Assembly (NCBI GenBank): GCA_033439295.1
Contig: JAVTLE010000017.1
Coordinates: 1,426,001 to 1,490,000 of the forward strand
Reading direction: 5' to 3'
From: Deuterostichococcus epilithicus
Taxonomy: Eukaryota > Chlorophyta > Trebouxiophyceae > Prasiolales > Stichococcaceae
Length of the DNA: 64,000 nt
Positions within the stretch are counted from its first letter, which is position 1. Every line of letters starts with the position of its first letter. Of the stretch, positions 1 through 63,670 are shown piece by piece. The position numbers and the translations under genes were made by a program. Below the pieces are notes generated by a model. The model had not been told where the DNA came from, ran no database searches, and was given only the letters and a program-made list of their open reading frames with translations.

Positions 1-3000
1 AAACTCCTCGGAAAACTCCTCCTCCTCCGTTTCCACCTGGGTGCAGACAAGAAAGCTTGGTTGCTGGAGTTTTGGGGAGTCTCAGATGGAGGCGTCCCGC
101 TCGCCCACAACTCCTCACCTGTTTTTTCTGCTGTTTCCACCTGGGCGCAGACAGGACAGCTTGTCTCCTGGAGTTTCGGGGCACGGACGCCCGCAGGGAG
201 TCTCGACTGGAGGGCTCCCGTTCTGTCTTCACCGCACATAGAGACAGAGGACGTAGAAGTTCCCCGCAACCTTCTCGGAGGGTTCCTTCTGCTCTGTCGT
301 CCACTTATGACGAAGACAGCGGATGACTGCGATGGCTTCAGGGCCTGCGAGCCGGCAGGTCTGTGCCCCCTGACGAAGAAGTCTTAACATTGCCTAGTCT
401 GCGGCGTGTTGCCCTGTCTCCACCAGGTTGGAGACACCAGAGGCTGGTGACAGGGGGTGCAGCTGCGGTAGGCTTGCACTGAGTTGTGCGAAAACACCAA
501 GGGCGACAGCCTGTTTCTGCCCGCTCGCACAGCCTCCACTCATACCAAGATTGCTCGAGCTGCCCACTGATAGGAAAGGACAGTCCCAGCGCGCTGCTGG
601 TGGTCGAAAGGCTCGCAGTCGTGACACTGGGCCTGCACACAGAAAGCTCTCTCAACATCACACAGAGCGGTGCTCACCAACGTCTTGCATTTGTTGATGA
701 GCTGGTCCAGTGTGGTGTTGACGACCTTCATCGCCGCTGTGCAGCGGCGCTGCCGCGGTACCAGCCACCGCAGCAGGGGCACCTGCAAGGCGTCAAGCAC
801 GTGTGAGGAGGCGTATGCATCCTGGGGACCGCAAGTGGCAGCCTGGGCTGCTGCGCGTGCTGAGGGGGCTAAGAGCCACCGGGTCGGCGCCCGAGACCGT
901 TATCAGTGTCAGGTTTTTGGGTCCTTTGCTGCACTCGACAGGCAGCACGAGGGTGTGCCGGCCCGTGTGCTTCACACAGGGAAGCCGGCCCAGGGGCAGC
1001 AGGGGACATGCACATCCAAACATCTCATGCACCACTGCATCGCAGAAGACTCACATTCCAGTAGGGCACGAAGGCTGTGCTCCGGTACTCAGCCTCGCGC
1101 AGCGCCACATACACCGCCTGCAGCATAGTTTTATTTTCCATTTCTATTCTATATTCAAATAAAAATCAAAAATAAAACAGAAGGCTGTGCGCCTCCAGCT
1201 TGGCACTCCCGGGGTCCAGATCTGGCATCGGCACGGCCCATGGCACATGCCTGACGACGCGGTCCCTTGGCTCACATGCATGATGTTGCATGCTGTGCCG
1301 GGCTGCGCAGGGCCTGATCGCGAGACAAGCCATCCTCGTCATCCTGTCGCACGTCTCGTCTAGCCGTCTTGAACCGTCCGGTCTGATGTATAACCAGTCC
1401 GGCTGCATTCAGCCAATCCCCACCAGCGACGGCCTAGCCCACCGCTACAACAGGGAAACTGCACGAGAGAAAAGCAGAGACCACACCTGGATGACAGGGT
1501 CGTCATGGGTCAGCGAGTCGAAATCGTAGTCGAAGACCGCCTTGCCAATGATGTCCAGCGTCAGGCGCGAGAACAGGTTTTCCATTTCCACCACCCGTCC
1601 TGTCTCTGCCGCCTCGTCCAGCAGCTGCATCATTCGACAGGTACAGGGTAAGGTTATAGACCGAAGGCTGTCCGCAATTTGCATTCGCCATGAGTTGATA
1701 ACCGCCCGCTGCTGCCGCCTCATCGAGCAGCTGCAGGAGCGCAATTCAGGAGCGGCGCCTCCCTGAAAGCACGTCAACACACTCGGCGAGGTCCCTACCC
1801 TCCTAAAAGAGCCCCGACAGGGCGCATGACAGGCTGCTCGGGTTTATCGCAACACACCAGCGGCACGTGTGCATCGCGCGGGCCAGCACCGGACGGCACA
1901 AGCGGAAAAATGTATGCCAAAAAACCCACTTTCGTTGCGTGCAACGTGCAGTCGCCAAACATGTTGACCATGGCGGCGATGTAGGCGCGGTGCAGCGAAG
2001 GCACGATGACACGCCGTCGCGTCTTCCAAATCTCGCCATCCGCTGCAGAGCATTGAAGACGATGCTGCGATCAGGCAACTGTCACGCGTTGTGCTTGATG
2101 CCGAAGAAGAGGTGGGTCAGATGCGCAGCACGCTGTAAAGCATGCCATGCAAGTGTTCACATAGCGGGAGAAGAGATCACAGTCGCATCTGCACAGCAGT
2201 CATTTGCACGCAAACCCTCAAGGCAAAGCCACCCAGACAGGGCTGGAGCTGGAAGTCAGGTTTCGGCGGCTGCTGCCTCACCTGGGATCATGCCGTTGCC
2301 CATGACGAACTCCAAGATCTCGGACAGCAGACCCTTGGAGTACTTGGTCGCATTCGTCATCAGCAGCTGCAGCAGCAGCAGAGACAGGGGTTTCATCATA
2401 AGCAAACCCTTCACACCCTTGCTGGACAGCACCATCATCTGCTGCAGCGCCAGCACAGCGACCAAGCATGCTCAGCCGGTCCAACAAGTCATGCACTCGA
2501 CCATCGAGCTGCTGTGCGGCAGCAGTTGCGTGCTAGGCCCCTGCCCAATCTGTTGCCCGGCGACGTTCCAGGCGGCAGCAGGCACAGGCAGAGCTGCGTC
2601 GCCGAGCGGAACGCCGTTGTCAGCCGTTGCTGCCGCAAGGCTGCACGAGGCTGTCGTCGCATGGTGCAGCGTCCTGGGAGACAGACTGAAGACAGTCCCA
2701 CCTGCTTGGCCATTGCCGCGTCCGAGATGACCACGAAGCTCTTGGGCCCGAAGCTGAGCCGGAAGATCTTGCCGTACGCCAGGAACAGCTTGTACAGCGG
2801 CACGAAGACCGGCTGGCCCACGATCTCCCGCACGTCGCCGGTGGCCTCTGGCATGCGCTCGGCTGCGGTCCGCTCCCAGACGCGCGCCTGGCGCGCGAGC
2901 CGCAGCGCCACCGCCCGGCCTGCGGCAGAGTGCAAGAGCGCCGTCATTCGCTGGAGGGGCAGGCAGGGAAGTGCAGCGCCGCCCGGATTAGACCTGCGAA

Positions 3001-4172: not shown

Positions 4173-7100
4173 ATGTTCTGCCGTGTCTCCCATCAGCGCT
4201 ACGATCCAGGCTGCCATTGCAAGCGCAGGTCCGGACCAGCAGGCTGCAAGTCGCTGCATGCCCAGCAGCAGCGGCAGCGGTGGTGCAGCCAAGCAGCCAC
4301 GCCGGCGCAGCTCAGGCGGCGGCCCTGGCGGCAGCCGTTCCAGCGGCCGGGATGCAGCCCGGCCCAGCAGCGGCTGCGCCGCCAGGGGCCCCTGTGCCTG
4401 TCAGCCTCAGCGTCCGCCGCCGCCGGTGTCCCGGCCTTTGAGGTGCGTAGCCAGCTCGGATGAAGTTGCCCCAAGTCGAAGGCGTTCAAGGCACAGTTCA
4501 CGAGGGATGGAGGCACTGTGTGCACAGGAGCTCTCACTGCAGCAGCGGCAAGTCGGCCTTCGAACTGCAGCGCACTGCGGCTGCAGACCGCCTCCGAGGC
4601 GGAGTTGGCTGTTTGGATGGTACCTGGAAACAACAAGATTGTGCGCCCTGGCAGGGCGGTGACGACGGCCAGCAGCTGTCGTTCGGGCAGAAGGTGTCAG
4701 CGTTCCGCAGCGCCTTTTGGAAGTTCCTGCGGCCGCACACCATCCGCGGCACCATCCTGGGCGCGTCGGCCGTCACGGCGCGGGCGCTGCTGGAAAACCA
4801 GCATGTGAGCGCCTGCCACCCACCCTGGAATATCTCAGAAGCCAGGAGTTTACGTCCTGAGGCCGTGGGATCCTGCCGGTGCTGTGTTATGGTGTATATC
4901 CACGCGCTGGGGGAGGGCGGTGTTCTGAGTATGCGAGGCAGCACGAGCGCCGGCTCTCAAGCTCACAGGGTCAGCCCAACGCAGTGCAGCATGCGACCTC
5001 GACGCCGCCGTCGGACTTGCAATTGCCCAGCCATGGCACTGACCCTCTCCGCGATCAGTCAGCTGGTTCACGCTGTGCATTTCGCGATGTTGCTTTTTGA
5101 GACTTCAAGCTCCCCCTGCAGCATCTTTCACTGAGGCCTGCGCACCTTGGACACACCCGCCCAGCCTGTGCACGCTGGTTGCGTGTTCAACACGAGTGTG
5201 GAAGCCCCTTTGCGCAGCTTGGAGAGGGGGGGGTTGCTGCCAAAGGCGCAGCTCGTCTTGTGCACGTCTACCAGCCGGTGCCTGTAACCTTCATGGGGCG
5301 AATTTGTGCGATGGTGACCGTCCTGCCATGCAGCACGTCGATTGGGGGCTGCTACCGCGAGCGGCGCCGGGGGCCACTGGCTGGCGTGCAGGTTGACTGG
5401 TGACTCTGAGACTTCTCGAAGCAAACCTCGATGAAAGGAATTCCCATCCTCGCTCCGCAGCTCATCGACTGGGGGCTGCTGCCGCGGGCAGCGCTGGGGG
5501 TGCTCGCGCTGCTTGCGGGCAACGGCTACATCGTGGGAATTAATCAAATTTACGACGTGGAGATCGACACCGTCAACAAGCCCTTCCTGCCAGTCGCCGC
5601 CGGTGCGTGCCTGTGGGATTTTCTCTGCTGTCAAGTGCGGTTCTTGGCGGTTTGTGACAGAGCGTATGCGCAGCCTGGCGCACTGCGCAGGGGCAGCGCG
5701 GTTGTGCGGTACTCTTTTCGATTTTCCCTTGCAGCCTCTGCGCAAGGTTGGGTCTGCGGCTTTGTGTCTGCATCCCCTGGGGTGCAATGCTGGCGTCTGT
5801 GCCTGCATGCGGGTGGGATTTTCTTTTCTGACATTGAATGATATTTCATTGGTTGAAGCGATGGCCCTGATATCTGCAGGGGAGCTGTCGCCGGCGCTGG
5901 CCTGGGTGCTCGTCGCCGGTCTTGCCGCCGCGGGGCTGACGATCACTAGTGCGCCGCCTTCTGCCTTTCTGTCACCTGTCTCCTGTGCTCTTGAAGACTG
6001 GCCCTCCGCATGCCAGCCCTCGATCCTGCTGCCCTTCCGCCGCACATCCGGCCTCAGGGCACGGCATGTGCGAGTACTGTGCGAGCATTGTGCAACATGC
6101 TGGGCGCCCTCCCGTGGCAGTGGCCACGCACAGCGCATGCGGCTGCATCGCGACACCAGCAACTCAGCCGCCTGGCGGCATCGCCAGGAGGCTGGCGGCA
6201 TCACTGTCTCAAGATCTGCATCGTCCCCTGCCGCTTTAGTGGTGGTGCACCCTCCCGAGCCGCGGTCGCCTGCAAGCCCCTGGCCAGCCCCCTGAACTCA
6301 CAAACCTGAAAGTGTTACTTTTTAAACTGGGAAGCGCAAACTCGAAACTCTACGCACTCATGCAGGCCTGAACTTTGGGCGCACCATCACTGCGCTGTAT
6401 ACTTTCGGGCTGGCGCTTGGCACCGTCTACTCGGTGCCGCCATTCCGCCTCAAGCGCTTCGCGGTGCCCGCCTTCATGATCATCGCCACTGTGCGCGGCT
6501 TCCTGCTCAACTTTGGCGTCTACTACGCCACGCGCGCGGCCATCGGGCTCAACGAGTTCGCCTGGAGCCCCGCCATCGGGTGAGCCCCCCGGGGAGCGGC
6601 TGTCGAGGCCTCGCTCATGTCTTCGAGTGGCAGGGGGAGGCGTCACGGGAGGAAACCACAAGCGAGGGGGAGGCACAGGGGGTTGGAGGGGAGTACGTTC
6701 TGCTTCGCGCGCCACCAGGCAGCCAGGCCGTGTGATCGTGTGAGGTGCCTGCAGCGGCGGCCGCGATTTCCGTCACCAGGGTGACAGCAGCTGCCGCCAG
6801 TCGATCGGTCTGCGCAGCAGCGCCTCTCCTGTCTGCCTTCTGCTGAGTTTATCAGGGTCGACAGGGTTTAGTGGATATCAGTCAGGCGACTGCGCAGACG
6901 TGCGGCCACAGGTTCACGGCCCTGCCTTGTGACGGTGATCGCGACCGGTCATTGCAACGTTCAGTTCGCCAGCAGAGACACAGAGAGAACCTTCAGGCTC
7001 CATCCACACAATGCCTCAAACTGCTGTTGCATTTCAGCCGTGTGCGTGAAGTCTGATGCCGCCGTTGCTGCAGGTTCATCACCTGCTTCGTGACGGTGTT

Positions 7101-14700: not shown

Positions 14701-17700
14701 GGACGCCACGAACGTCGGAAGTGCCGCGATGCGTGGTTCATGAGTTCTCCAGGGTGTGCAACCAGGGGAATCAGGCACGCCGGCTTGCAACCCTCCAGAG
14801 CAGCAGCCCGAGAGCGGCATGCTCATGCCCCATGAGCATGAGCATGCTCACGCGAGGCCGTGCTGTGAGCCAGCCCGACTTGGAAGGTCTCCAAGGCTGC
14901 CGCCTCCAGTGCTTCACCTGGACCTGACCTGGGGTCGCACCACACTCCCAGCGCACCTGCCTGAGGTAGCCGGTGCGCCCTCCGTGCACAGGATTTAGGC
15001 TTTAGTTGCCCCCGGGCCATCCGTTTGGCGACGACTTCAGCAGAGAGTCCTCGCAGTACTTACGCGGTACTTCAGCACCTGATCCCTTACGCATCCCGCA
15101 CAGTCCACCGTACAAGCGACACATCTTGTCCGCGGCCACGTCCAAGACTTCACAGAAGAGAGAAACCTTGGGCATCTGCAAGACCTGCACCTTCTTGGCG
15201 GCCGCCGCGGCGCCCTCAGCGCACACGATGTGGGGTTCAGGCAGCCCCTCCATATCCGGGTTTAAAACTCGGGTTGAGGCGCCAACCCCAAACCCTAGAA
15301 GCACCTTCTCTACGGCCGCCACGGCACCCTCGGGGCGCGCGCTCCTGCTGGGCCTCACTGATGTATGGGTTAAGCAATCCCCATACTCACTAAATGTAAG
15401 CGCAAGCGCACCTTCTCAGCGGCCGCCACGGCACCCTCGGCACGGGCGCGCTCGTCCCGGGCCTCCTCCCTCGCCTCCGCCACGCTGGCGGAGCGCAGCG
15501 CCAGCTCCGCGGAATGCTTGCGGGCGGCGTCCTCGGCGGCGGCCTCCGCCGCCGCCAGGCGCGCTGCCAGCGCGCCGCCGCCGCCACCGCCGCCCGCCAG
15601 CGACGGCTCAGCGGCCTCCTGGGCGAGGCGGGAGGGAACGGTGTGAGGCAAGCGCAGTGCAGCAAAATCGCGGTCGAGGGTGGGCGTCTGCGGCGACAGC
15701 AGCGGGAGACCCGGCGGGTGTGTCTTGCAGACATCGCATCCTCCCTTTTGGCTGCGATCACAACACAGGCGTGTCGGCAGCCGCAACTGCCACATGAACA
15801 CATTCGCATGGATGCAGGTCCAAAGAGCACAACCAACAGATATCAAGCGCTTCTGCAGGCTCCACCTGCAGCACGGCAATCTCCTCGAGCGCCGCGTCGA
15901 GCTGCTGCCGCAGGCCAGCCGCCGCTGCCGCCTCCCGCTGCAGGGCCTCCAGCTGCGACTGCATGGACAGGTGCGCCGCGGCCGCCGCCGCCGCCTGCGC
16001 CTCCAGGTCTGCCAGCGCCGCCTCCGCACCGCGCCGCGCCGCCTGGCAATGACAAGCAGACAGCAGTGAGCACCGGGCAACGGACTCGTTGTTGGAAAGC
16101 CCGGTGGCTGCGCGCCGCCGGCCCCCGCCTGCGCACCCCGGCCTTGGCCGCCCTGCGCCGCACCCTGGTCTCTGCCCCCTGGTCAAGACGACAGAAAGGC
16201 TGCTGTAAATGGAGCAACCGAGCAACAAATCCGTCCAGCCTTGCAAGACTGATGGGCACGGTGACGTCATGCCTGTGCCTCCCAGTCTGCCAGTGCGGCC
16301 TGTGCATTGTGTCCAACCGCCCCAGGGAACATGCGGAGGCCACGAAACTGGGTGCATCGAGCAGCACATGCATCTGATGTCGGCAGAGCCTGCTGGAGCT
16401 CACACAGCGAACGCACGCATGGTTGCGGGCACTTGCCTGGCTCAGGTCGGGCGCTTCGAGGCAGGAGCACCTTCCGGAGGTTACCGGCCCCTGGTGCAGA
16501 GCTGCTGGCCCGAAACCCTAGATACTGCTGCTGCGGGCTCAGGCCTCCCCTCTCGGCTCCCGAGCCCCACCCTGGGAGGACGATGTCCCACGACAGGGCG
16601 CTGCAAGCCCCCAGGGTTAGGCTTTGAAATTTGACCGACGCAAGGCTCGGAACACGAAGGGCACCTGCGCCGCAGCGGCATCGGCAAGCGCCGCGTCGCG
16701 CTCCGCCCGCGCGGATGCCGCCGCCGCCTCTGCGGTCGACGCCCGCCCGGCAGCCGCCTCCTGCGCCGCCGCCGCCGCTGGCCCCTGCCGCGCCGCCGCC
16801 TCCGGTCGGGCCGCCGCCGCCTGTGAGGCGCCGTCGCCGGCGGGGGCCGCGGCCGGCAGCGCCTCCGGGCGTGCCATGGCGGCGCGCAGCTCTGCCAGCT
16901 CCGCCTGCAGGGTGACCACCTGGAGCGGGAGAGACCCGGCGGCATGAAGGGTGCCCGCATGAAGAAAGGGAGTGGCCCCCTCGTCGTGCACCGAAGCCCA
17001 AGGTTCCCTGGTTCCTGCGTCGGGTTCCCCGAGCCCGGCCACGCCCGTCATGACTGACCAGGACCAGTTGTTGGCCACGGCGGCTGCCGACCGCTGGCCG
17101 CCAAGAGTCTTCTCACGGTCAGAAACCGCAGTGGCGCTCTGCGTCAGGCGGGCCATGCGCGGCGGAGGCGGGGGCAGGGGAGGCGTCGTCGGTGTGGCGC
17201 ACCTCGCGCTCGGCGTCGGCGGCGCGCTCCGCGGCCGCGACGGCCTCGGCGTCGGCGGCGTTGCACAGGTGCCGCGCTTCGTCGCGCTCGTCGCGCGCGT
17301 CGTTCCGCTGCCGGACCGCGGCCCGCTTCATCTCCACCAGCTTGGCGCCCTGCAGGGCACGCTTTCTGGGGTTTGCAGGGTTTGAACAGCACATGCGTGT
17401 GCCATCAGGTGAGAGCCGTCGGATGTCGGAGAGGTTGGTGAGTGCATCTAAACCAAGGTTGTGCCCTGTAGAGCACATGAGTGTCCCGTCAGGCAGGAAC
17501 CGTCAGATGTCGAAGCTGGCCGGCGCCGCCCTGTTCCGCTGCCGCGCCGCACTGGAGTTCGGGCCCGCCACCGCAGCGCCCCGAGCGTGGATATGAAGTG
17601 CCCAGTATTCGAACTGATGGAAGCTCCGCATTATGCTACGGTGACATTCCGGGCACGCATCGGAGGCTTGGTTCTGCAATGTCAGCAAAGGGGAGTGGGA

Positions 17701-18310
17701 CAAGGCGGGTAAGGGAGTTTATGTCTCCTGTTTCTCTCTCAAACACACACCTTTTCCGCCTTGCGGTCCAGCGCGCGAACGAGGGACATCTCCCGCCCCT
17801 TGGCCTGCGCCAGCGCACGCTCGTAGTGCTCCTGCAGCGCGATGATGCGGCGGCCGAGGTCCTCGTGGCAGGCGGCGGCGCCCGCGAGCATCTCGTCCGG
17901 GTGGTGCGCCTGCGGCAGGATGTACAGACAGGGTTTACTTTGGTTGGATGGTTCAAGTGCTTCGCGGTGGCAGCGGCCCAGCTCCCGCCGGCATGTCCGC
18001 CGGGTGGTGCGCCTGCGGGGCAGGTCGTGCAGTCAGGTTTCAGTCTGATTGAGCGGTTGGAAAGCTTAATGATTCATGATCGAAAGGGCTGAATGATTGA
18101 CTGCTTCATCACTGTGCAGGGTCGGCGGCCCAGGCCCGCCTGGCACGCTGCCGCGCCCGTCGGCGTCGCGCCCGGGCGGCAAGCCTGCAGCGGTGCCGTT
18201 TGAGACACGTCAGCCTCCAGTACTGCAGCGCACGAGCGGTGTCCTCGCGGTTTACCGCCGCTGCACCCGCCGGCGTCTCCCGGGGCGCCAGCAGTCCGTC
18301 TGCCGGCACC
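11769..18310 (-). CDS. Long Ala/Glu/Arg-rich coiled-coil protein, unrecognised
   Basis: Many short exons encode uninterrupted heptad-like sequence rich in A, E, R, Q and D: for example near 17900-17760 (EHYERALAQAKGREMSLVRA), 17350-17190, 16920-16665, 16045-15870, 15618-15410, 14690-14340, 13541-13235, 13115-12897 and 12553-12230. The terminal exon 11855-11769 encodes LDAFYQLQNLSFKETLPALH, then a short tail and stop. The segment 13541-13235 carries a roughly 13-residue repeat of the type AAETRKREVEAAWQQAE. Such proteins are typically cytoskeletal, centrosomal, flagellar or Golgi scaffolds, but nothing here identifies which. The 5' end is uncertain: an Arg-rich exon at about 18310-18115 (ALQYWRLTCLKRHRCR) may be its start, or the gene may continue into the next entry. 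Confidence 0.6.
12028..12095 (-). repeat. Exon echo upstream of the terminal coiled-coil exon
   Basis: Minus strand reads LETLPLLAG, matching KETLPALHQLLAAG of the terminal exon (11855-11769), about 240 bp downstream. The GACCCTGCCG core is preserved. Confidence 0.65.
15187..15470 (-). repeat. Three tandem copies of a coiled-coil exon end
   Basis: Minus strand: EGAVAAAEKVRLRL (true exon, 15410-15470), EGAVAAVEKVLLGF (about 15299-15352) and EGAAAAAKKVQVLQ (about 15187-15225). All share the pattern CTTCT..GCGGCCGCC.CGGC(A/G)CCCTC on the plus strand, spaced about 112 bp. Here the copied edge is the exon's 3' end, so the decoys follow the true donor. Confidence 0.75.
17392..17530 (-). repeat. 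Tandem intronic duplication
   Basis: CACATG.GTGT..C.TCAGG followed by CCGTC.GATGTCG.AG occurs at 17392-17445 and again at 17476-17530 with about 80% identity by eye. Same style as the exon echoes elsewhere. Confidence 0.6.
17880..18060 (-). repeat. Tandem duplication at a coiled-coil exon edge
   Basis: TCGTCCGGGTGGTGCGCCTG (17893 on) recurs as TGTCCGCCGGGTGGTGCGCC (17994 on). In both, a GGTTT(A/C) stretch follows. The first copy is coding (minus strand: AHHPDE); the second is intronic. Confidence 0.65.
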
Positions 18311-18549
18311 CGTGAATGGCTGGGTTTGGGGTCTAGGGCTAGCCAGCGTGGCCTGGGGCGGGGCGGCCTGTCGCTCATGTTTGAGACAGGGTGCGCATCA
18401 AGTGGCACGCACAGAGGCTCCAGAATCTGAGGGGCATTGAAGCCGCGGCGAAAGTAGAAGAGGGGAGATAGAACAGGCGGAAGTGGGGTCAGGTTGAGGA
18501 GAATGAGAGGGAACTGGCGGAGAGAAGGGCAAAGGGAACGGGACGGACC

Positions 18550-31300: not shown

Positions 31301-32807
31301 CGCAGGAGCGCGCCTCCCGCTGGGACTCGGGATTCTCCAAACTAGAGGGTTGCAAAACAACATCTTCTATTCTCTGCAGGCACTATGTGGAGGCGCAGGA
31401 GTGCGAGCTGCAGGGGTCTGAGGTGTAAGCCTGACCCCTCAAGTGTCTACAACCTACAGCGCATACATTGCACAGGTACTACGTGGAGGCCCAGGAGCGA
31501 GAGCTGCTGGGCACGCTCGACGCTTTGGTAGCGGAGGAGACTTGGGCGCCGGTCGACGAGGCCGCGGGGGCGGGGGTGCTGCGCAGCGCCAGCCAGCTGT
31601 TCGGCGCGATCAAGACCTCGCTGCTGCGCTGCAGCAAGTACATCACGCGCGGGCCCGCGCTGGCGCTGCTGATGGTCACCTTCCAGGCGAGAACTGAATT
31701 TCGATGGATTCCACCATGAGTTCAATAGACACGCGACCCTGGTCGAGCCGCCGCTGCGCCGCCGCAGCGAGGGAATGCGGCGCGCTGACCGCCAGCCCGG
31801 CGCAGCTCGCAGACCACCTTCAGGATAGCTTGGGTGGCTGGCCCCGCCCTGGCTCCCGTTTGCTCCGCTGTGGGTCTGCCACTTGGGCGCGGCTTCACGC
31901 ACGTGCAGCCGCTGCCGGCCATCGCATGGAGCAACGGGCAAGCCCCCCCTCCACACCGTCAAGCGCTGTGGGAACCAAACCCGTTCATATGCCTGGGGGC
32001 ATCTGTGACGGCCACCGCTGCCGTCCAAGCGCCGAGCTGGGCATCGCACCCAGGGCGCTGCCGGACTGTGCCGCTGCGCACACCCAGCCGCTGCAGCAAG
32101 TGGGGCAGGCCCGCCCTTCAGCGGCCCACAGCCGCCCCGCAGCGGCACTCCCCCTGCCACCGGCGGACAGCGGTCTGCACCGGATCCGCCACTGCACGGG
32201 AGTGAGAGTTGTGGCCAAAGCCGCTGGCCAGGCCCTGACGCCAAACCCTGCAGGCCACTTATGCGGCCGCAGCCGCTGCATCCAGGAGCACAACGATTTC
32301 GACAATTCCAACCTGCAAACATGATGAAACCCCCGATCCCTGGGTGCGCCTGCAGAGGGTGGCGCGCGCCTACGCCGGCCGGCTGGCGGCGCGGCTGCCC
32401 AAGACCGCGTCCGGGGCCATGACGGCCGGCGCCCCCACCCTGGCCACCCAGGAGTGGCACGTGCGCCTGGGCGAGGGCGACGCCGCCGTCGCGTGCGCGG
32501 TGGTCACCACCTGTGAGTACTGCACGGAGGCCATCGCCGCGCTGGGCCGCTCCGTTGCCAAGCTGCTGGACCCGCCGCTTGGCGAGCAGGTGGGTGGTGT
32601 TTGTTTCCAAGTTGAAAAGCTGTTGTAATGGCCCTGTTATGCTGCCCCGTGCCGATAGACACCCGCCCTGGAGTGCTGTCGGGGCGCTGGGCTGCTTCGC
32701 CGTCCAGCCTGGCTGTACCTGAGCCGGCGGGGGCGGCGGGGGTTGTCATGTGCCGCTCGCGGCAATGGAGGCGGCGGCTGCGGGCGAGGCCACGGCGGCG
32801 CTCAACG

Positions 32808-32840
<33 letters not shown>

Positions 32841-35697: not shown

Positions 35698-35731
<34 letters not shown>

Positions 35732-48046: not shown

Positions 48047-51000
48047 ATGAGGGCTCCCTCCCTGCCCGGACGGCATGGCGAGTGCAGCCAGCTGCGCACG
48101 CTTACATCGCCCCAGCGAAATCACCTGACACGGTCACTCAGGCGCCCAGGTGCCGGCGGCAGCAACTTGCAAACTCAGTCAGGCCGGTCACTGGCAGCCA
48201 GCGCCAGCGCCACGCTGCAACGCGAGGCCCCGACACAGCAGTCCGAGGTGGTATGCTGCCTGTCCTCCAGGAAAAACGCATCGTCTCCTGCGCACAGTTG
48301 GCATTCACTGTACGACACCATCAGTGGGGATGAACCTGGAGGGGTTGCCTTGACCTGTCACTGCCCGGCCGTAGCGCGAAAACAACACTGTTTCGCTTCA
48401 GATAGGCTTTGCTGAGTGTTCAAATCTGCTGTGCAGGGACGGCCGGACTCCGCGGTGGTGCTGCCGACGCCACGGGCTGCGGCGCTCGCAAGCGACGAGC
48501 GCAGCTTCTTCGAGGAGCACCGCATCCGCGCCTACGAAGTGGGGCCGGACCAGCGCTGCACCATCGTCACCATCGCCAACCTGCTGCAGGTTCGGGGGCA
48601 TCGTGCCGGGGGCCATTACAGTCTTGCGCAGCTCTCTGCGTGCGGAATCCTGCTGCGCCATGCATAGCGAGCCGGCTGTGCGCCTAGCCGCACTTTGACA
48701 AATTGGTGTCCAGTAGGCACCCCTCACGCTCGCCTGGCATTCCGGATCTGCATCCTGTATCTGCTTGCTGTTTCTCAAGAGAAAATTCTCTTACGGGAAT
48801 GTGAACGCTGCGTCGCCCAACATACTGCGCGGCACCCAGCCGTGCGCTGGCCCCGCCGCCGGAGGAAGCAGGCAACCACGGCACGCCCGGTGGGGGCTTC
48901 GACTCTCTCCATCTGAGTCCCCACCCTGTCAACATCTGTGCGTAACATCTGTGTGTACATTCCCTTGCCATCACAGGAGGTGGCGGGCAATCACGGCGTG
49001 GCGATGTGGGGGCGCGGCGCAGAAGGTTTCGCGACGGACCCCATCATGGTGGAGAACCACCTCATCTTCGTCGCCACCCGCATCCAGATCCGCATGGAGA
49101 CCTACCCCCAGTGGTGAGCAGTGGCACCTGTGGCCCAAACAACTCGCCTTCACAGTTCTGCGCTGCCGCCGCCAGAGTCGACTCGTCACAACGTTGTTTC
49201 AGATGTCGAGCGACTCAGACCTGAATGAGAGCAAGCTGGCCTTGATGGCAGCGGGCCAGGGCTCTGCAGCAGACGGCAATGGTGTGTGGTGGCAATTGCC
49301 TCCTCCATTTGCAGGATGTGTGTTGATGAAACACCGCAGCCGGACATACGGCCAGCTTGACGACACCCGCTCACAGGCAGTCACTCCCACCCATCTCGTA
49401 ACCTGCAGGGGTGACCTGGTATCCATCGAGACCTACTTCCAGCGGGACAGCCGCATCGCCTTTGAGCGCAACTGGATCATCAAGAACGTCGCCACAGGGG
49501 AGCAGCTCGGCGTCGCCACCAGGTGCACAGAAAATTAAGACAAATTTCAAAACTTCTACAACAAAGGCAGCCTCCGCCACCTGCGGCCCGGTCTGCCGGC
49601 TCCCGGTGCTGCCACGCTGCTCCAGGCCGCCACCCGCGCTGGAGCCCTGCGTCTCTGTCCGCTCGTCATCTTCCATGTCTGTCTTCAGCAGACGCAGAGC
49701 ACTTGCAGAAGCTGCAGCCTTGACCCGCCCGGGCTGCAAAGCCAGCAGCAACTGTGTCCAAGCGCTGCGAGGGGCATGCATAATGCCATGCCATTCACCG
49801 CGCACTGCCTGACCCTGGACACCCCCTGCCGTGCAGCACCTGGATCATGCTGAACACCCAGACGCGGCGACCGGCGCGCATCCCGGAGGCAATGGAGAGC
49901 AAGCTCTACCGCTTTGCACCCGCGGTGCCCAGGTGCTGACCCTGGACCCTCAACCCCTAGCACCGCGCAAAACCCTGGAGCAGGGTTTTGCGCACAGTGG
50001 CTGGAGGGCGGTCGACAGAGGGGGTGTGCGGGCCACCGCAGGTCGCCAATGCCTCTCTGTTGCTTAGGTGGCGGGACGCACGGCGCAACCTCGGGCATGA
50101 GGGGTCGAAATGGCCTTTGGCGAGAGCCTTCGGGTTCGTGCGGAGCCTGAGTTGACGAATGCGAGAATGGCACCGAATCTGTGCGCTCGCTGTGCAAGGC
50201 CGCTGCCTGATGCACCGCTCCGCCGCCGCTGCGCAGGCATACCATCCGGGCGGAGGAAGCAAAGCAGAAGCTTTCCGAGTTCCCAATGCCGCCTGAGGTA
50301 CGCCGCTGCACTTGCCGTCCCCTCTGAGGTTTGGGGGCAGGTTTCAGCTCTGGTGCATCGTGTCTCCTGCAGAGAGCGGCACTCCGTCATTGCCAGTCTC
50401 ACACCTCCGACTGCAACGGCATTTGCTGCGGCCCATGTGGAGATGCTGGCTGCCAGCTGGCCGCCGCAGGCCTGGCGGTTTTGGAGCTTTGGCGCTTGGC
50501 CCGAGCGCCTGTGCCTGCAGATCAGATCAAACCACGGAGTCAGTGCAGCTGGCGCGCCGCTCGCGTGTGAACATTGAAACCTGATCGCTCCTCCAGATGA
50601 CGTGCGCTCCAGCCCTGGGGTGCTGACCCTACTTCCTGCTGTGCAGACCAGGATGCCGGTGCAGGCGGCACAAACCAAGATGGAGCCCGCGCCTCAACAG
50701 GGCTTGCGCGCTTTCGTTTGACTCCACTTCTGACCATGTCTCGCACCCGCTCCGCGCAGATCACGGGGCCAGTGCAGGTGGCACGCCGCTCTGACGTGGA
50801 CATGAACAAGCACCTCAACAACGTCACCTACCTCGCCTGGTGCCTGGAGACGGTGCCTCTCGACGTCTACACCAACTGCCAGCTGCACCAGGTGACAACA
50901 CGCGAGCCTGCTTTTGAAGGACACAAGACGCACAACGTCCCTTTCTGCCGGCCTACCCCCCGGGCCTGGCGCCTGGCGCGTCTTCGGAAGCCTGGCGCCA

Positions 51001-52265
51001 GCTGCCCCAGCTGCCGGCTGCACCATACGAGCGGGGACAGTCTCTGAAGCATCCTGCCAGGGGCCGCACCTGCTGCTGCGGAGGAGGAGACTCCCAGAGC
51101 ATGGCGCTGTGCGCTGACCTTGCACACGCCCAGCGGGCCAACACAGATGCCCCCTGACGATGCTCATCTAGTGCAGGTCGGTCCAGCGTCCTGCCTTTTG
51201 TGTCCACCAAGACGAGGAGGACAAGTGCACGGCGTGCAGCCCCTGCCTTCAGGCCGCTCCAGCCGGTTGTGGGTCTCGGGGGTCAGCAATGGATGGTGTC
51301 ATTCAGCCAGTTCCGTTACGCATCAAAGGAACTCAGCCCATCATGTAATGTACTCTGGTCGCTGAAGGTGTCCGGCAGCAGGTTGGTATTGATGCCAAGG
51401 TGGCAGCAGCAGCGGTGTGCAAGGGTGGGCGGCAATGTTGACTTTCCCATTTTCCCAGCCGAGTGCCACTGGTGCTGAGTCGACTGCATGCCTGTCGCAG
51501 GTAGGGTTCGACCTCGAGGCAGAATGCGCGGCGGGCAACACCGCCGACCTTGCTCGATCCTTTTCCTTCACGGACGGTGCGTTGCCATAATCATTGTGCT
51601 GGCTACAGGTGGAGATCGACTACAAGGCGGAATGCGTAGCTGGCGACACCGTCGACTGTCTGGGCTGCCGCCTCAACAACCCCGCAGACGCCAACGGCAA
51701 CGGCACAGGTGGTGATATCTGTCTGTCGAATCACAGCTTTTAGACTTCCAGGTTTCGAAATGCTCTCCTGAAGTGCTTCCTATGTAAAGCAATGACCGTG
51801 GGAAGGGGCAGGCGACTATCGAGACCTCCTGGGTGAGGTGGTTGGCAGACTGCTATGTCCAGCACCAGCAGCGGCGCATGTGCGTGAGCCCGCCGCCGGC
51901 GCCTGGACTTGACAAAGCATGTCTCAATGCGATACTGTCACGCTGCGCTGGCGCCCGGCGCTGTCTGCTGTCCCTTGTGCAGGCACGCTCCTGCTGCACA
52001 TGCCGTGGCGCTGCCGCCGTGCCGCCACCGCTTCAACTCGTCCCCTGGCCCTGACGCTCGCGCTTTCCACTCTTTCAGTCGAACCCTTGCAGCCCACTCA
52101 CAGCAATATCCTACTGCGCCTACAGGCACACGCCACCTGCTGCACATGCTGCAGCGGTGCGACGATAACGGCTGCCGGGAGCTGGTGCGCTGCCGCACAG
52201 CCTGGCGGCCTTCCCCCAACGCCATCAATGCCGACGAGGCGCTCGGCGGCGCCGGCGGCGCCTGA
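48047..52265 (+). CDS. FAT: Plastid acyl-ACP thioesterase (FAT)
   Basis: Hydrolyses acyl-ACP in the plastid stroma to release free fatty acids, which sets chain length. Nine exons: 48047-48247, 48437-48589, 48977-49113, 49409-49522, 49837-49932, 50237-50297, 50760-50891, 51609-51708, 52126-52265, closing in phase to 377 aa. The N-terminal 67 residues are basic, Ser/Thr/Arg-rich and transit-peptide-like. The first hotdog fold follows: YEVGPDQRCTIVTIANLLQE, GNHGVAMWG, TDPIMVENHLIFVATRIQI, WGDLVSIETYFQRD. The second carries the catalytic set D268, N270 and H272 (DVDMNKHLNNVTYLAW), and E306-C307 (YKAECVAGD). It ends at a short CRTAWRP tail. FATA versus FATB cannot be decided by eye; algae usually have one ancestral type. 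The start is the first ATG giving a typical transit length (the frame is open to 47939). Confidence 0.94.
50518..50680 (+). repeat. Two echoes upstream of FAT exon 7
   Basis: The true exon at 50760 reads CAG then ATCACGGGGCCAGTGCAGGT. Copies: 50518-50570 (CAGATCAGATCAAACC then AGTGCAGCTGGCGCGCCGCT) and 50642-50680 (CAGACCAGGATGCCGGTGCA then GGCGGCAC). The first keeps the codons for QLARRSRVN, against QVARRSDVD. Confidence 0.75.
51501..51576 (+). other. Phase-matched alternative copy of the FAT catalytic exon
   Basis: GTCGCAG acceptor, then codons VGFDLEAECAAGNTADLARS and FSFTDG, then donor GTGCGT. The annotated exon 51609-51708 encodes VEIDYKAECVAGDTVDCLG and more. Both start in phase 0 and end in phase 1 (76 and 100 nt), so they could replace each other in frame but not be joined together. 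The Glu-Cys pair is kept. It could be a functional mutually exclusive exon or a young echo not yet decayed. Confidence 0.65.
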
Positions 52266-53253: not shown

Positions 53254-56200
53254 TTAGTTGTTCTCCGGCCGCCCAGACGGCCAGGTCCTGTTGAGCACTG
53301 GCCGCAGTATGTCCTGAACACGCTGCAGCGCCTCCTCCTCCTTTTGCCGCGTGTCCGACGGCACCAGCCCCAATCCCTCCAGGGCCGCCTGGACGTTGAA
53401 TCGCACCTGCGCGCGGGACATTGCTGCACAAGGTTCATGTGAGCGCAGCAGCGCGGCACCGCTGTGGGCAGCATTGCAGACGGCCATGCACGTCCCTGGG
53501 ATTGGGGCCGCAGCAAACGCCGCTCTGACCGGGCTCCTGGCAAGGTCCCGCGACAGTACACTCAGGTTCGCAAAGGCAGAGCCGGCGAGGCTGGTCGCAG
53601 CGGCGCCAGGCCCAGCAGCCAGCGATTCAGGACAGTCTCTGAGATCATCAGCAGACAGGAAGAGTGCTCGCACCTGGTCGCGCGAGGCACAGCCGACGAG
53701 GTTTGTGGGAATGTCCTCGTGCCGCACGGCGTCCATTATGGCCAGCTTGGCGATGTCCACGCCGCGCTCGTTGGCAAACCTGGCCGCCTCCGCAGCTGCT
53801 GACTTGACCTCCTGCGGCGCCGGGTGCCAGTCCGGCGGGCCCTGCGTGAGGTTGAGGGTTGAAACTTGTTGCTTTGGCGATGTTTCTGCGAGTGCGTCAA
53901 CGCTACTTCTCGAACATCCAGCATGAGGATGCAGCAGAGTTGTGGTCGACATGTACTGGTCCAGCATCTATCGGCTTCTGCCAGCATTACCAGCCCGTGA
54001 CATCACCATGACACTGCCACCGCAGTACGCATGAATAAGCTTGCTCAGGGCGGAAAACAGCTAGACGCCCAGGGAGCCCTTCGATGTGCGGACATGTCGA
54101 AAGCGCACGAGAGGGTAACTTGGGCCCGCAGGCCACCATTTCCAACCTGTATCAGCCATGTCTTGCTGGCAAACAGGTCAAACAGGCCCTGGTTGCACTG
54201 CCAGGAGCATGTGCCGCTAGGGCTCATCCAAACCCCTCATTCAGGTCCCTCTACCAGCGCCCACCTTATGTGTGAGTAGGCCCATGCTTAGCACCGAGCC
54301 GTTGATCACCGCCACGCCCTTTTCAGCCAGGTAGGGCAGCAGCTCGGCCAGCGACCGGTCGTTCAGCGCGTAGTGGCAGTACGACAGGATGGCCTCCACA
54401 CTGCCGGCCGGCGCCCTGCGTGCACGAAAACTCGCGTAAGGTTTCCACGTTCTGGCTTCGTATCGGTTGCCTGCATCACGTGGTAGCCACAGGACTGAAA
54501 GGCGTCCACGCAGACGGCCGCCGCCCTGCAGACACGCAGGTTTGACGGTTTGTGGCGTCACGTTGGTCGTTGAGTGCGTGACGACAGTGGGACAGAACTG
54601 CGCACACACTGCGGGCTGGCGCCCCTGCGGACAGAGAAACTCAAGCTTGTTGACTTCGCATGACTTGGTATCAATACCCGACTTGGTGTCTATCATCGAG
54701 TGCAAGGCGGCAGAGGGGCAGAGTCACGTCCAAGCTGCCGTCCAGCGCCCTGCAACACGACGGCTGTTCGAGATCCAAAGATTCGACTGCACCTCTAGTG
54801 TCGACTTCAGGCCGGTATGCATCAAGGGATTGGCACGAGACGGACGGTGCAAGACCAGTCTCGTGGCCGGCCATTGGTAGGGCAGAACAGCCATGGCGGC
54901 GGCCGCATGTCAGTCGCTGCACTGAGCTGATGCGAGTCCCACGGCAGGAGCGGCTGCGGCCCCGCGGCTGGCGGCAGGCTGCGCGTGCTGGTGTGTGCCC
55001 AGGGGCAGCGTAGCAGCGTGTCAGGCGGCTTTGAACAAACCAAAGTTTGCCGTAGGCCGTGCCGCAGCACCGCTGCGTTGGAATGAATCTGCCATGCTAA
55101 ATAGCAGAGGGAACAAACCCTACGGCAGCCCAGAGGGTGCGCACTGGTCCAGTACGGTGCGGAAGATCTGCAGCGGCAGCCCGGTGATGCCAATGTGGCG
55201 CACTAGACCCTGATCCCGCAGCGCCACCAGCGCCGGGATGGTCTCGTTGACCACCTGCGGGAGGGCAGGATTCAGGGTTCAGGGGTTATATATTCATCAG
55301 TGCTCGTTGAACAGTCATGAGCACGTCTGCTGCGGGGGGTTTGCGCAAGCTCCTGCGACTTGTGGGCAATGCCGGCCGGCCATCACGGAGGAACACATGT
55401 GGTGAGGGCTGGGCAGCTGGGCAGCGCAGAGATGCTGCCGTACTGCGGCTCAAGCTAAGACACGGCCGGTGCCTGCGAAGACCGGGCGCACTAGCAGGCG
55501 CAGTTCTCAGTTCATGTGCGCAAAGGCCGCTGTGAGCCGGATTATGTCAGGTCATGTCAGGTCATGTCAGGTCAGCACCAGAGGTGCAAGGGGGGACACC
55601 CTGCCGAGCAAGGCCGGGCTCTGGACCCTCAGAGAATCCCACGAAACATGCCACCTGGTCGTTATGCTTAATCCCCCCAGGTCCATGAACTCAGTGTTGT
55701 GCGTCTGGATCAGGTTGACGAAGTATATCAATTCATTCGACTTCCAACCCTGCTGAAGGAGTCCTCACCTGATTGAGGTCTGCGAACTCGATATCATGCG
55801 TCTGGATGAGGTCAATGTAGTCGACCTGCAGCCGTTTGAGGCTCTCCGACACGCTGGCGGTGACCCGCTCCCTGCTGAAATCGAAGGTCTCCGGACCGTA
55901 GCGCCCCACCTGGGGGAATTTACAGACGCCACGAATGAGCCGGAGGTGAGCAGAAGCGGTTTGCCACTGAATCGCAGAGCCTCTGTCAGCTATGGCGCCT
56001 CCGGATGCCACGAGCCAGTTTCTCATCGTACCCGCCTACACAGGACAGTTGGCAGCACGCTGATCCGTGCAGCAGTCCAAAACCCTGCAAACCAACTTTG
56101 AATTCATGCAGCTAGGCAGCGGACTCAGTGCCGGAGTCTTTCGTAGCCCGCAACCTGATCGCGACCTGCTGGCGAACCTTGACGGGGGCGCGATGAGCTG

Positions 56201-57236
56201 ATTACGTGCACGTCCTTCAGCGCGCGACGTCATCACAATGCCAGTGCCTTCAGGTGGCCCGTCGTTGGACTTTCGAGTCACACATCAGCACGCTAATTAG
56301 AGTATGGTGGGGCAAGGGCACCTTGGTGGCCACGATGATCTGGTCGCGCGGCAGGTCCTTCAGCGCGCGGCCCAGCACCTGCAGATCCAGAGTTTGGAAG
56401 GCTCGACCCCACGCAGAACTCGATTGCGGTGCGCCGGACTGAAGCAACCCTAGCGTGCTGGCGCCTCGATGGCAGCAGCAGCAGCAGCTGCCGCAGCAGC
56501 AGCTGCTGGTGCAGCACAGGATGCTCCAATGAGAACTCAAGGGAGCTCGAATTCCTTGGCAGCTTTTTGCTTGGGAAGCAGCCTCATGCCATTCAAGGAC
56601 CCGTGGGCACAGTCACTGGCATAGATTCTGTAACTGGAGTTGTTTTTCTGAGTGGTCTGCCGGCGGGCGCGCCTGCTCTGAGCGCGTCTCGCCATAGAAG
56701 GGCGACGTGTCGAAGTAGTTGATGCCCAGTCGGAAGGCCTCGTGCACAGCGCGCACGCCTTCCTCCTCGTCGATGTCCTGCGCACGGGCAGGAGCACGAA
56801 GTGTGTCAGAATGCAGGGGCCGCGAGATCCCGTGGCACCCATCCGAGGACAGGGCCTTGCATAATTGTTTACCACAGAAGCTGCCCCGCTTATTTGCTGC
56901 GCGTGTACCCTTGGGCCGCTCGAGACAGCTGGGCGACCATGTGTGCGAGGCCCAGAGCGACATGAGGCGCGTGCGCCGTGCCGTGCGATGAGGATGGGTT
57001 TCTTGCTCAGCAGCTTTCGCTGCGTTGTCAACCTCTTGGGACGTAGCCCAAATTCAGCCCGGATCAATCATGAAACGGATCTAACGAAACTGACATGGGA
57101 CAGGCCAAGGGGCTCGCTGCCGCAGGTGCGGTTGCACCTCAAAGACGCTGCCGAGGGGTGAGGCTCCGAAGCTCAGCACCGATGCCTCCAGTCCTGTCTT
57201 TCCCAGCTGCCTCCTGGGCAGCTTTGGCTGCGACAT
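53254..57236 (-). CDS. LGALDH: L-galactose dehydrogenase (aldo/keto reductase), ascorbate synthesis
   Basis: NAD-dependent oxidation of L-galactose to L-galactono-1,4-lactone, the penultimate step of the plant (Smirnoff-Wheeler) ascorbate route, in the cytosol. Eight exons: 57236-57138, 56777-56673, 56378-56322, 55909-55769, 55254-55145, 54415-54265, 53841-53674, 53406-53254, closing in phase to 327 aa (plant enzyme about 319). Order of blocks: LGKTGLEASVLSFGASPLGS, FRLGINYFDTSPFYG (catalytic Asp and Tyr of the AKR tetrad), QIIVATKVGRYG (Lys), DYIDLIQTHDIEFADLNQ (His), RHIGITGLPLQIFRTVLDQ, VEAILSYCHYALNDR, VAVINGSVLSMGLLTH, GPPDWHPAPQEVK, C-terminal NRTWPSGRPENN. No transit peptide. The intron after 56673 has a GC donor. 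Collinear with plant L-GalDH throughout, so the specific name is safe. Confidence 0.95.
54478..54528 (-). repeat. Exon echo 1 upstream of LGALDH exon 6
   Basis: Minus strand CTGCAG then codons AAAVCVDAFQSCGYHVMQ, matching APAGSVEAILSYCHYALN of the exon at 54415. It lies about 110 bp upstream in transcription direction. Confidence 0.75.
54678..54752 (-). repeat. Exon echo 2 upstream of LGALDH exon 6
   Basis: Minus strand TTGCAG then codons ALDGSLDVTLPLCRLALDDR, matching APAGSVEAILSYCHYALNDR of the true exon: about 20 codons kept in frame with an AG acceptor. Confidence 0.85.
55544..55575. repeat. Short tandem repeat in LGALDH intron
   Basis: Three to four units of GTCATGTCAG in the intron between exons 4 and 5. 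Confidence 0.85.
56203..56232 (-). repeat. Downstream echo of LGALDH exon 3
   Basis: Minus strand GCGCGCTGAAGGACGTGC copies GCGCGCTGAAGGACCTGC of exon 56378-56322 (RALKDLP), about 140 bp into the next intron. Confidence 0.65.
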
Positions 57237-61900: not shown

Positions 61901-63670
61901 CTGCCTTTGCAGCAGTCTCTAAACCTCAGACCCACCTTTATGGAGTTGTACTGCTCCTCCACCGAGTCAAAGTACTCAGACGCCTCCCGCTCCTTGTTGA
62001 AGAACAGGCCCAGGAATTTGATCCACTCGGCACGGTTGAGCGTGCCTGCGGCAGCGGCAGCAGCCGGTGAGGCGCCGCCCCCTGTTGGTGTTGAAGAAGA
62101 GGCCAAGGCAACTCGAGCCAGCTGACGCGATCGAGCGTGCTTGCTGCATTGGTGCTGCATGTGAGCGGCGCCTCGCAATCAGAACAGTGAGGTGCACGCA
62201 ACCGCTGCAGCAGTGTCAGCTGTAGCGCATTGGAGAGCTCAGCTGCTCAGCCACCGGTGCCGCCGTGGAACGCGCTGTGCAAGGAGCGAAACGGCGACAC
62301 ATGCAGGAACACGCGGGTCACGTCCCCAACCAGACTTCCTCCAGTGCGACGATGCAGCTTCACTGCCGCGATACTGGTGCACTGGGGACACTACAGCAGA
62401 CTTGCGCAAGTGTAGAAGGTGGCGAAAGGGCTTCACATGGTGGCAACAGCAGGGTTTAGATGGTTCCCACCAGGGTCCTGCGAGGCGGAGAAGGTGAAGA
62501 CGGGCGCATCGGAGGGCGGCATAGGGTCAAGCGTCGTGGTGGCCATGATACCGTCCACAAAAGGCAGCACCTCCGCCGCCAGCACCGTCTCGTTGCCCAG
62601 CATCGATGAGTCCACCGCGGTCCTGTGGGCATTCAATGGGTCTCCTTGGTGATGTTGGCGCAATATATTGCCCGCACCAGCCGCCGCTTCTCTTGGCATG
62701 TGGCATGGTGCAAGCAGAGCGAGGCAAGGCAAGTCGTCGTCCGGCAAGAAGCTGTGAGTGTGCTCTGCATGATGGATCGCCGGGTCACGAGAGTGCGGAC
62801 GCATGAGTCGGCGGCGGGCGCACTTGTTGCAGGACAGCAGCTGCTGCGCGCAGGGCGCCACCGAGAAGGTGCTCACGGACTGCACGCGGTCCGTGACGTT
62901 CAAAATCTCCTGCGGGGCGCAGGAATCCGGCGCGTGGGCGAGGCAGGGCCTGCAGCAGTGTGGTGATGTGGGAGGCAGCGAGGCAACACCAAGGGCAAGC
63001 CAAACATGGTGGCTCACCAGGAAGGCGTAGGGCACCGTGTCCGGCACAGTCACGCTGGTCAGAGGGATCTCGAAGATGCGGGCGCCCGGAGCGACATTGA
63101 CGGACGGCCTCCGAGAGCCGCATTGGTACAGCACATACGTCTCATTCGTGTAGGTGTTTGTCACAACCTGCGGCGGCACAGCACCATGAGCGATCGAGCT
63201 GGCGATTGCATTGGAGGGCAGCCAGACAGGCGCTCACAGCGATGGAGTGAGGGCACACCTTGTAGCTCGGGAAATACTCCACCGCGAAGTTCTTTGCGAC
63301 GGTGATCTGCGGCGGAGGCAGTGCGAATCAGAGAGAGGAGCTGCTGTGATCGCAGCAAGTATGCAGGCCAAACCTGCGCGCTTAAGCCGCCTGCAGTGGT
63401 AGGTCATCGGGACAGTGACTGCACCGATCAAGCCGCCGCGATACCTCGCCGTCGGGCGCCCACCTTTGTCGACTCGTCCTGCGTGCTGACTTGTCCGCCT
63501 GTCAGGAAGAAGTCGGACGGGAAGATGGCGGCAAAGGTGGTGGCGGTGGTAGTTGCGGGCAGGCAGTCCTCGCTGAAATTGGACGGCCGCTTATAGAGTG
63601 CCTGGCCCGATGCCGCCGCCAAGCAGCAGCCTGCCAGCAACAGTGCCTGCAACGCGCGGGTGGGAGCCAT
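58968..63670 (-). CDS. Secreted, GPI-anchored periplasmic-binding-protein-like protein
   Basis: Exons with closing phases: 63670-63464, 63306-63259, 63167-63018, 62909-62824, 62622-62471, 62045-61936, 61626-61507, 61212-61042, 60585-60452, 60182-60059, then 59535 to about 59381 and a terminal exon of about 59170-58968. A signal peptide (LQALLLAGCCLAAASGQA) is followed by many N-x-S/T sequons (NFS, NET, NVT, NRT, NST, NGT, NCT). Blocks such as ITVAKNFAVEYFPSYK, NTYTNETYVLYQCGSRRP, KPTVAWISHFVYAP and DVVIDETYALDPTMYTYDQF look like the two-lobed fold of ABC substrate-binding proteins for iron complexes or cobalamin (TroA/BtuF type); this is recall, not a search. The C-terminus is small-residue rich, then VAAALSPLAAAALGAVALLAL-stop, a classic GPI signal. 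Its frame matches only if a base is corrected near the N at 59034. Probably a cell-surface nutrient-binding protein. Confidence 0.65.
59034..59034. other. Ambiguous base with frame change
   Basis: N within the Gly/Ala linker before the GPI-type tail. Upstream frame (CTYAACDGSAAAGAPG) and downstream frame (VAAALSPLAAAALG) do not match across it, which suggests an indel in the assembly. Confidence 0.75.
59585..59722 (-). repeat. Echoes upstream of exon 59535 of the binding-protein gene
   Basis: The true exon has TTCACCTGGTTCCGCAACGTG and, further on, GTGACCGCCGCCAACTGC. Copy 1 (59585-59646) has TTCCCCTGGTCCCGCATCGA and AGTGACCGCCGCCAACCC. An older copy (59695-59722) keeps ATGACTGCTGCCAATTGGCA. 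Confidence 0.75.
62078..62142 (-). repeat. Exon echo upstream of exon 62045 of the binding-protein gene
   Basis: Minus strand codons STLDRVSWLEL then CCTCTTCTTCAACACCAACA copy GTLNRAEWIKFLGLFFNKER of the exon 62045-61936. Identity stays clear over about 65 bp, with a one-base frame slip in the middle. Confidence 0.8.

Follow-up and report, generated by a model that had tools for sequence, protein, structure and literature searches.

Many introns of the trebouxiophyte alga Deuterostichococcus epilithicus contain partial, diverged copies of the edges of their neighbouring exons. These copies, here termed echoes, lie in direct orientation, decay neutrally and lack young members in the 264 kb of sequence analysed, which comprise a 64-kb stretch of contig JAVTLE010000017.1 (positions 1,426,001 to 1,490,000, hereafter the window) and a 200 kb tile of contig C1, from a genome of 46.8 Mb in 21 contigs. 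The explanation we prefer, and to which we would give an even chance, is that the echoes are mostly relics of an old cohort of direct duplications across exon-intron borders.

Gene models were predicted ab initio with a self-trained gene finder (49 models, 658 exons), and detection thresholds and simulation settings were of our own choosing, a strict echo being a match with a local score of at least 34. At this threshold 35 of 1084 exon sides matched their own adjacent intron directly and 0/1084 matched it when the intron was reverse-complemented, compared to 1/3129 comparisons with introns of other genes. At a score of at least 26, matches to the own intron were found at 60/1093 edges (donor side 26/545, acceptor side 34/548), compared to 28/6558 in other-gene introns of matched length (17/3270 and 11/3288) and 8/2062 donor-side and 6/2076 acceptor-side comparisons with non-adjacent introns of the same gene. 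These controls rule out low complexity and chance similarity as the source of the echoes, and they uphold an earlier sequence-only reading of the window, which had proposed that introns carry copies of adjacent exon edges and that the similarity would exceed that to non-adjacent exons. Cryptic splice sites, gene position and intron phase were also tested as causes and rejected.

The same reading placed echoes in most genes. They do recur in the C1 tile, at about half the density of the window (21 echo edges in 489 introns and 12 in 120, respectively), but at the strict threshold they are found in only 17 of the 49 gene models, a count lowered by the gene finder, which turned about a dozen echoes into exons and so hides some. 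Among the loci it named, HST, the coiled-coil gene, VPS53, FAT, LGALDH and the binding-protein gene have strict echoes, whereas those of CYP97A (score 28) and MFS (scores 32 and 28) are weak. Two consecutive echoes occur at several exons, including three VPS53 exons with two each, in keeping with the one to three copies first described.

A self-comparison gave a pile-up of direct near-repeats at lags of 75-175 bp in both window and tile. The tile had some further direct repeats at 50-75 bp and the window some at 200-300 bp, part of the window set being coding repeats. There were no inverted repeats within 500 bp at 35 bits or more in either sequence. Direct pairs at lags of 75-180 bp numbered 55, made up of 32 exon-intron pairs, 16 pairs with both members in modelled exons (the coiled-coil coding repeats and echoes called exons by the gene finder), one pairing an exon with sequence outside the models, and six without an exon. 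Tandem Repeats Finder (minimum score 50) includes none of the echoes in its 28 rows, and by this measure they are neither minisatellites nor contiguous arrays. Echoes go with long introns. At a score of at least 30 they were found in 4/90 introns of 60-120 bp, 0/106 of 120-180 bp, 3/151 of 180-250 bp, 8/147 of 250-350 bp, 21/71 of 350-500 bp and 5/29 of more than 500 bp. The contrast between 21/71 at 350-500 bp and 3/257 at 120-250 bp agrees with the earlier proposal that echoes lengthen introns.

The copies are tied closely to the exon edge. Of 35 pairs, 33 have a copied segment that starts no more than 20 bp from the edge (the other two start at 30 and 104 bp), 24 of the 33 no more than 4 bp from it, and many matches extend through the splice site. 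The exon interior was the source in two cases only, though hundreds of exon sides allowed it. The median lag is 113 bp (range 49-229), and matches extend 24-87 bp into the exon. Acceptor echoes aligned in fixed register share.74-.80 of positions with their source across the first 20 bases of the exon; identity falls to.57 for the final 10 bases of the intron and to.33 for the ten preceding them, and is at the background of about.25 beyond 30 bp. The spacer between an acceptor echo and its exon is at least 41 bp in 28/29 pairs, as retention of the branch site requires, whose motif (CTGAC or CTGAA) peaks 25-35 bp upstream of acceptors. Copies that are direct, adjacent and inclusive of the splice site are those expected of tandem genomic duplication across a splice site, and to this extent, and in their neutral decay, the mechanism put forward in the sequence-only reading finds support; the part that falls short is the intron portion of the unit, which is detectably homologous in 5/36 pairs (p<.05, where about 2 are expected by chance; pairs with an intron part under 25 bp were left out).

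Introner-like elements are families of similar sequences that insert in large numbers and shape introns; the echoes differ in that each resembles its own exon only, with no shared family in the 264 kb apart from a paralogous pair. An all-against-all comparison of 609 introns revealed no common sequence family, and of its 30 matches with E<=0.01 the two above 40 bits belong to one paralogous gene pair. An introner family or a templated spacer was rejected on the grounds that the matches of spacers to the 264 kb, those in their own locus apart, are all 13-30 bp long, with one exception of 44 bp that lies inside its own intron. Spliced mRNA or cDNA is excluded as template because the sequence flanking the echo lacks similarity to the neighbouring exon (20-bp flank identity.25 to the other exon and.45 to the own intron, n=27).

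Mismatches between echo and exon fall on the three codon positions at.152/.121/.189 (32 pairs, 1333 sites), and 2/26 gaps in these pairs are multiples of three. This absence of a codon signature shows that the copy drifts freely, the exon adding mainly third-position changes. Tandem alternative exons and coding constraint were discarded as explanations, the copies being partial and without a codon pattern in mismatches or gaps, as were mini-exons, since no second splice site is enriched at the inner end, a test that is biased because two-site echoes tend to become modelled exons. Donor scores are negative in 8/14 donor echoes and acceptor scores in 7/20 acceptor echoes, although the CAG is mostly retained in the latter (.85/.90/.80, n=20).

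Age and simulation comparisons used 33 echoes, two of the 35 matches being left out as their source ends more than 20 bp inside the exon. Divergence runs from 8.3 to 25.5% (mean 15.3%) with a standard deviation of.050, against a binomial expectation of.057, so the spread is no wider than one common age gives, and a single age near 0.2 or a stopped process fits the values. No echo of the 33 is less than 7% diverged, compared to 32-39% expected under constant birth, which is rejected (Kolmogorov-Smirnov p at most 1.7e-4). The earlier suggestions that copies decay at different rates through a repeated process, and that such duplication is a frequent mutation here, are therefore not sustained, and the mutation does not look common at present. 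The list of ages lacks about a dozen pairs modelled as exon-exon, and model-free exon-edge pairs, read with the coding repeats of the coiled-coil gene left out, top out at 93-94% identity. In 53 kb of extra loci, one pair with 97% identity lies at a lag of 70 bp (L032, close to a dispersed repeat) and a C-rich one with 94% identity at a lag of 107 bp (L036), either of which may or may not involve an exon. Young members do occur among tandem duplications lying wholly within introns (98% identity at lag 64 and 92% at lag 77), suggesting that the assembly does not generally lose young repeats.

A scheme that would explain these features begins with a short direct duplication, mostly of about 80-175 bp, that spans an exon-intron border. 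The outer splice site would stay in use while the inner copy became silent intron, lengthening the intron. The original unit would have included an intron part, and both intron halves would since have drifted beyond recognition. The exon half would remain legible because selection maintains its counterpart, the true exon and its splice signal, and intron parts would be lost first because two free intron copies diverge at twice the rate of a copy compared with a conserved exon. Purely intronic duplications of the same age would be invisible, as neither copy is held by selection. The cohort would have an age (T) of about 0.25-0.30 changes per neutral site, and the lack of young members in the 264 kb implies either an episodic origin or a later slowdown in production. 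The most commonly suspected cause of such duplications is repair of staggered breaks.

The loss of the intron part requires either that the duplications are old or that nothing but the exon edge was copied. A calibration is offered by a divergent paralogous gene pair, arranged head to head, in the C1 tile (139165-142205 and 142922-145009; contig C1 1139165-1145009). Two of its introns are 82-88% alike, one is partly alignable and two are not alignable, which suggests patchy conversion or very uneven intron turnover. Simulation indels were calibrated on this pair. With an old cohort at T=0.30 and an indel/substitution ratio of 0.24, the 10/50/90% points of identity are.77/.83/.90 (observed.78/.85/.91), the probability of no pair reaching.93 is 0.22, and intron-part homology is.21, with which the observed 5/36 is compatible (p=.21). 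Repeats confined to introns point the same way. Fifteen introns had internal repeats, of which four involving echoes and one simple repeat were set aside, leaving ten in 504 introns, six of them near-full-length tandem duplications and four with a spacer; three lie at lags of 75-180 bp, where an old cohort predicts 0.7 (T=0.30) or 3.4 (T=0.25). An expectation of 115 such repeats, obtained with uniform copying, used few indels. Paralogue calibration and fixed-age simulations with more indels thus weaken the argument that missing intron-part homology disproves tandem duplication. A search for paralogues of window genes that could polarise the events (window 1-12000 and 25001-64000) yielded only a dispersed repeat and two short matches.

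Several observations weigh against an old cohort of border-spanning duplications. Six of the eight pairs with identity of at least.91 show no intron-part similarity (z<2). In the C1 paralogues, at a third-position divergence of.22, 8/21 intron segments, and 5/10 at intron ends, can still be recognised as homologous, compared to 5/36 for the echoes. Matches start within 4 bp of the edge in.73 of the 33 echoes, compared to.59 (T=0.25) and.42 (T=0.30) in simulations, and T=0.25 predicts a visible intron part in 40% of pairs, well above the 5/36 found (p=.0006). The six near-full-length intron-only duplications have lags of 42-77 bp, shorter than those of echoes, so a different process may have produced them. 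Spacers on the donor side, where no branch site demands it, likewise measure at least 38 bp in 21/22 pairs. No single simulation setting fits every feature, and the episode or slowdown is itself without explanation, for old duplications and for edge copying alike.

Exon-edge-specific copying is a possible alternative, to which we assign a clear minority of the probability. Here about 50 bp (intron position -8 to exon position +42, approximately) would be written into the adjacent intron, leaving the native intron in between untouched. The sharp fall of identity near the exon edge, the source ends within 20 bp of the edge in 33/35 pairs and the 31/36 pairs without detectable intron-part homology count in its favour, and the branch-site score upstream of 22 echo acceptors is no higher than that of random intronic CAG (p=.37) and is lower than that of real acceptors (p=.017). 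An edge-only simulation with ages of 0.15-0.6 fits both the loss of the intron part (.04) and the inclusion of the edge (.70). The proposal nevertheless requires a new mechanism, some machinery or intermediate by which splice sites are marked. Examples would be template switching at a break close to stalled splicing and copying from a pre-mRNA template, a spliced-mRNA template being excluded by the neighbouring-exon identity of.25. It also needs an old cohort, as the chance of no pair at or above.93 is 0.000 with ages from 0 and 0.03 with ages of 0.15-0.6. Furthermore, five pairs do have intron-part homology, and echoes are preceded by a slightly better pyrimidine tract than random CAG (p=.012), as expected of a decayed true 3' splice site. 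In its boldest form, which we regard as doubtful and a little less probable again, the splice sites themselves would mark the DNA, and in one past episode copies of the edges of about 50 bp would have enlarged introns genome-wide without duplication of the intervening intron.

The remaining explanations fare far worse. Tandem duplication across splice sites that continues at a steady rate, the form proposed in the sequence-only reading, shares the direct orientation, the spanning of the edge and the five pairs with intron-part homology, and is very improbable in view of the simulations, which predict 38-59% of echoes at or above.93 identity (0/33 observed), intron-part homology of.84-.86 (5/36 observed) and about 38-44 intron-only repeats (3 observed at lags 75-180); across simulated young or steady-rate duplications the intron part stays visible in 84-97%, the upper value coming from a run with few indels.

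We attach marginally less credence still to retention of echoes for an action on splicing, as decoy or poison exons. Their divergence is uniform, the acceptor CAG is mostly kept and lags divisible by three are scarce, but the codon signature is absent, donor and acceptor are not enriched at the inner end (a result biased by exon calling), donor echoes are often dead and acceptor echoes sometimes, and very old conserved copies would show a third-position divergence above the.19 seen. The scarcity of in-frame lags (9/51 echo pairs in window and C1, 17 expected) could reflect tolerance of frame-shifting decoys alone or an effect of the gene finder. Homogenisation of old tandem copies by gene conversion from the exon, under which exon parts would stay similar as intron parts drift apart and which could explain why the inner echo of one VPS53 trio is nearer the exon than its sister echo, is just as improbable, since mismatches do not group into tracts (Fisher p=.86 for 32 pairs, a pair with under three mismatches being left out) and the near-identical pairs it predicts are absent.

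The echoes of the window are listed in Table 1.

Table 1. Exon-edge echoes in the window, with the source segment of each (window coordinates, bp).
Gene	Echo	Position	Strand	Source	Lag	Identity or score	Remark
CYP97A-like	Weak, exon edge	1712..1735	-	1606-1629	106	score 28	
HST	Next exon start	5330..5373	+	5457-5500	127	84%	
HST	Next exon start	6921..6955	+	7082-7115	161	83%	
Coiled-coil	Preceding exon end with donor	15301..15356	-	15408-15465	107		Further copy 15187-15220
Coiled-coil	Next exon start + ~39 bp intron	17967..18051	-	17865-17946	102		One of the five pairs with homologous intron part
VPS53	Next exon start	26750..26804	+	26863-26913	113	score 35	
VPS53	Outer, exon start at about 27798	27500..27539	+				
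VPS53	Inner, exon start ~27798 + 22-23 bp intron	27642..27708	+	27776-27842	134	88%	
VPS53	Preceding exon tail	28681..28728	+	28471-28528			Stops short of donor
VPS53	Outer, exon start 29661	29367..29430	+				Trailing sequence common to echo 29526, absent from exon
VPS53	Inner, exon start 29661	29526..29576	+	29646-29696	120	94%	
VPS53	Preceding exon end with donor	29825..29865	+	29729-29769	96	93%	
VPS53	Outer, exon start 31476	31268..31312	+				
VPS53	Inner, exon start 31476	31361..31415	+	31473-31511	96		
VPS53	Preceding exon end + donor	33064..33143	+	32957-33034	107		
MFS	Weak	37712..37737	+	37812-37837	100	score 32	Source 23 bp inside exon
FAT	Next exon start	50533..50562	+	50762-50791	229		
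FAT	Next exon start with CAG	51498..51548	+	51606-51656	108		
FAT	Weaker, next exon start	51984..52014	+	52129-52160	145	score 31	
LGALDH	Exon start	54565..54642	-	54357-54433	208	72%	
LGALDH	Preceding exon end	56176..56226	-	56320-56369	144	77%	
Binding protein	Exon near 61936-62081	62089..62148	-	61995-62053	94	75%	

In the VPS53 trio at 29367-29696 the inner echo is 94% identical to the exon and only 75% to its sister echo, despite the stretch common to both echoes, a pattern of uneven decay or local conversion. The coiled-coil gene also contains a coding tandem array with periods of 63 bp and 42 bp (12974-13579) that is distinct from the echoes.

The gene models on which the comparisons rest have clear splice signals, with donors of the AG/GTGCG type and acceptors TGCAG/G, a median intron of 219 bp and a median exon of 117 bp. 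About 6% of modelled donors have GC instead of GT. Telomere-like words (AAACCC, AACCCT) are enriched before acceptors, in the last 45 bp of introns in window and tile (AACCC 47, 14 expected), and perhaps serve as branch sites. Pfam supports six of the seven proteins typed from the window (P450, UbiA, Vps53_N, MFS, acyl-ACP thioesterase and aldo/keto reductase), and Vps53_N was matched as a single stretch (E=5e-88) by the typed protein, from which the echoes are omitted; the Pfam search with the seventh, a C-terminal VPS53 piece, gave no match. The MFS intron 40060-40762 carries a dispersed repeat of about 280 bp (window 40334-40614) with seven long matches of 74-83% identity on contigs C6, C7, C9, C12 (two), C13 and C18 and some shorter ones; five copies are flanked by repeats with a lag of about 150-170 bp, several of them around GCGCATGCGC. 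Among the extra loci, L003 (1-3020) has internal direct and inverted repeats that are 93-99% identical and is probably a recent mobile element.

In the green alga Chlorella variabilis NC64A, 'repeated half-exons', exon ends repeated in adjacent introns, may have been reported (Blanc et al. 2010). No literature on repeated exon halves in introns was among the matches listed, which cover open-licence papers only. An intron of the potato RdRp gene arose by duplication of the 3' part of an intron with the 5' part of the next exon (PMC4974935). That unit is the one proposed here and brings with it the branch site, pyrimidine tract and acceptor. In potato the duplicated piece of exon became part of the spliced product, with the gain of a new intron, whereas here the inner copy stays within one enlarged intron; ten nucleotide differences separate the two potato copies along the full unit, whereas here the exon part alone is usually recognisable; and a single gene is involved, compared to the 33 echoes of the 264 kb. 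A similar case is the tandem duplication of proto-splice sites in Drosophila (PMC2891723), in which an exon is partially duplicated and the copy intronized. It differs in giving novel intron positions, in its few cases and in leaving, according to its authors, no sequence trace of duplication.

Echoes carry decoy splice sites that mislead gene prediction, as seen in the dozen or so that were modelled as exons. If copying were specific to exon edges, splicing would be linked to genome change, a link of which, to our knowledge, there is no description. If instead the echoes are relics of an old cohort of duplications, simulation suggests that roughly 130-300 border-spanning duplications lie behind the 33 detected among 1218 exon edges, and that they were episodic rather than steady. 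Were the 33 echoes in 264 kb representative, the whole genome would contain about 5,800 strong echoes. Lengthening of introns is mostly inferred from statistics, whereas here each echo is one recognisable event beside a constrained exon, and a single assembly yields a datable series of candidate intron-lengthening events. The echoes of D. epilithicus may thus be a readable record of intron growth.

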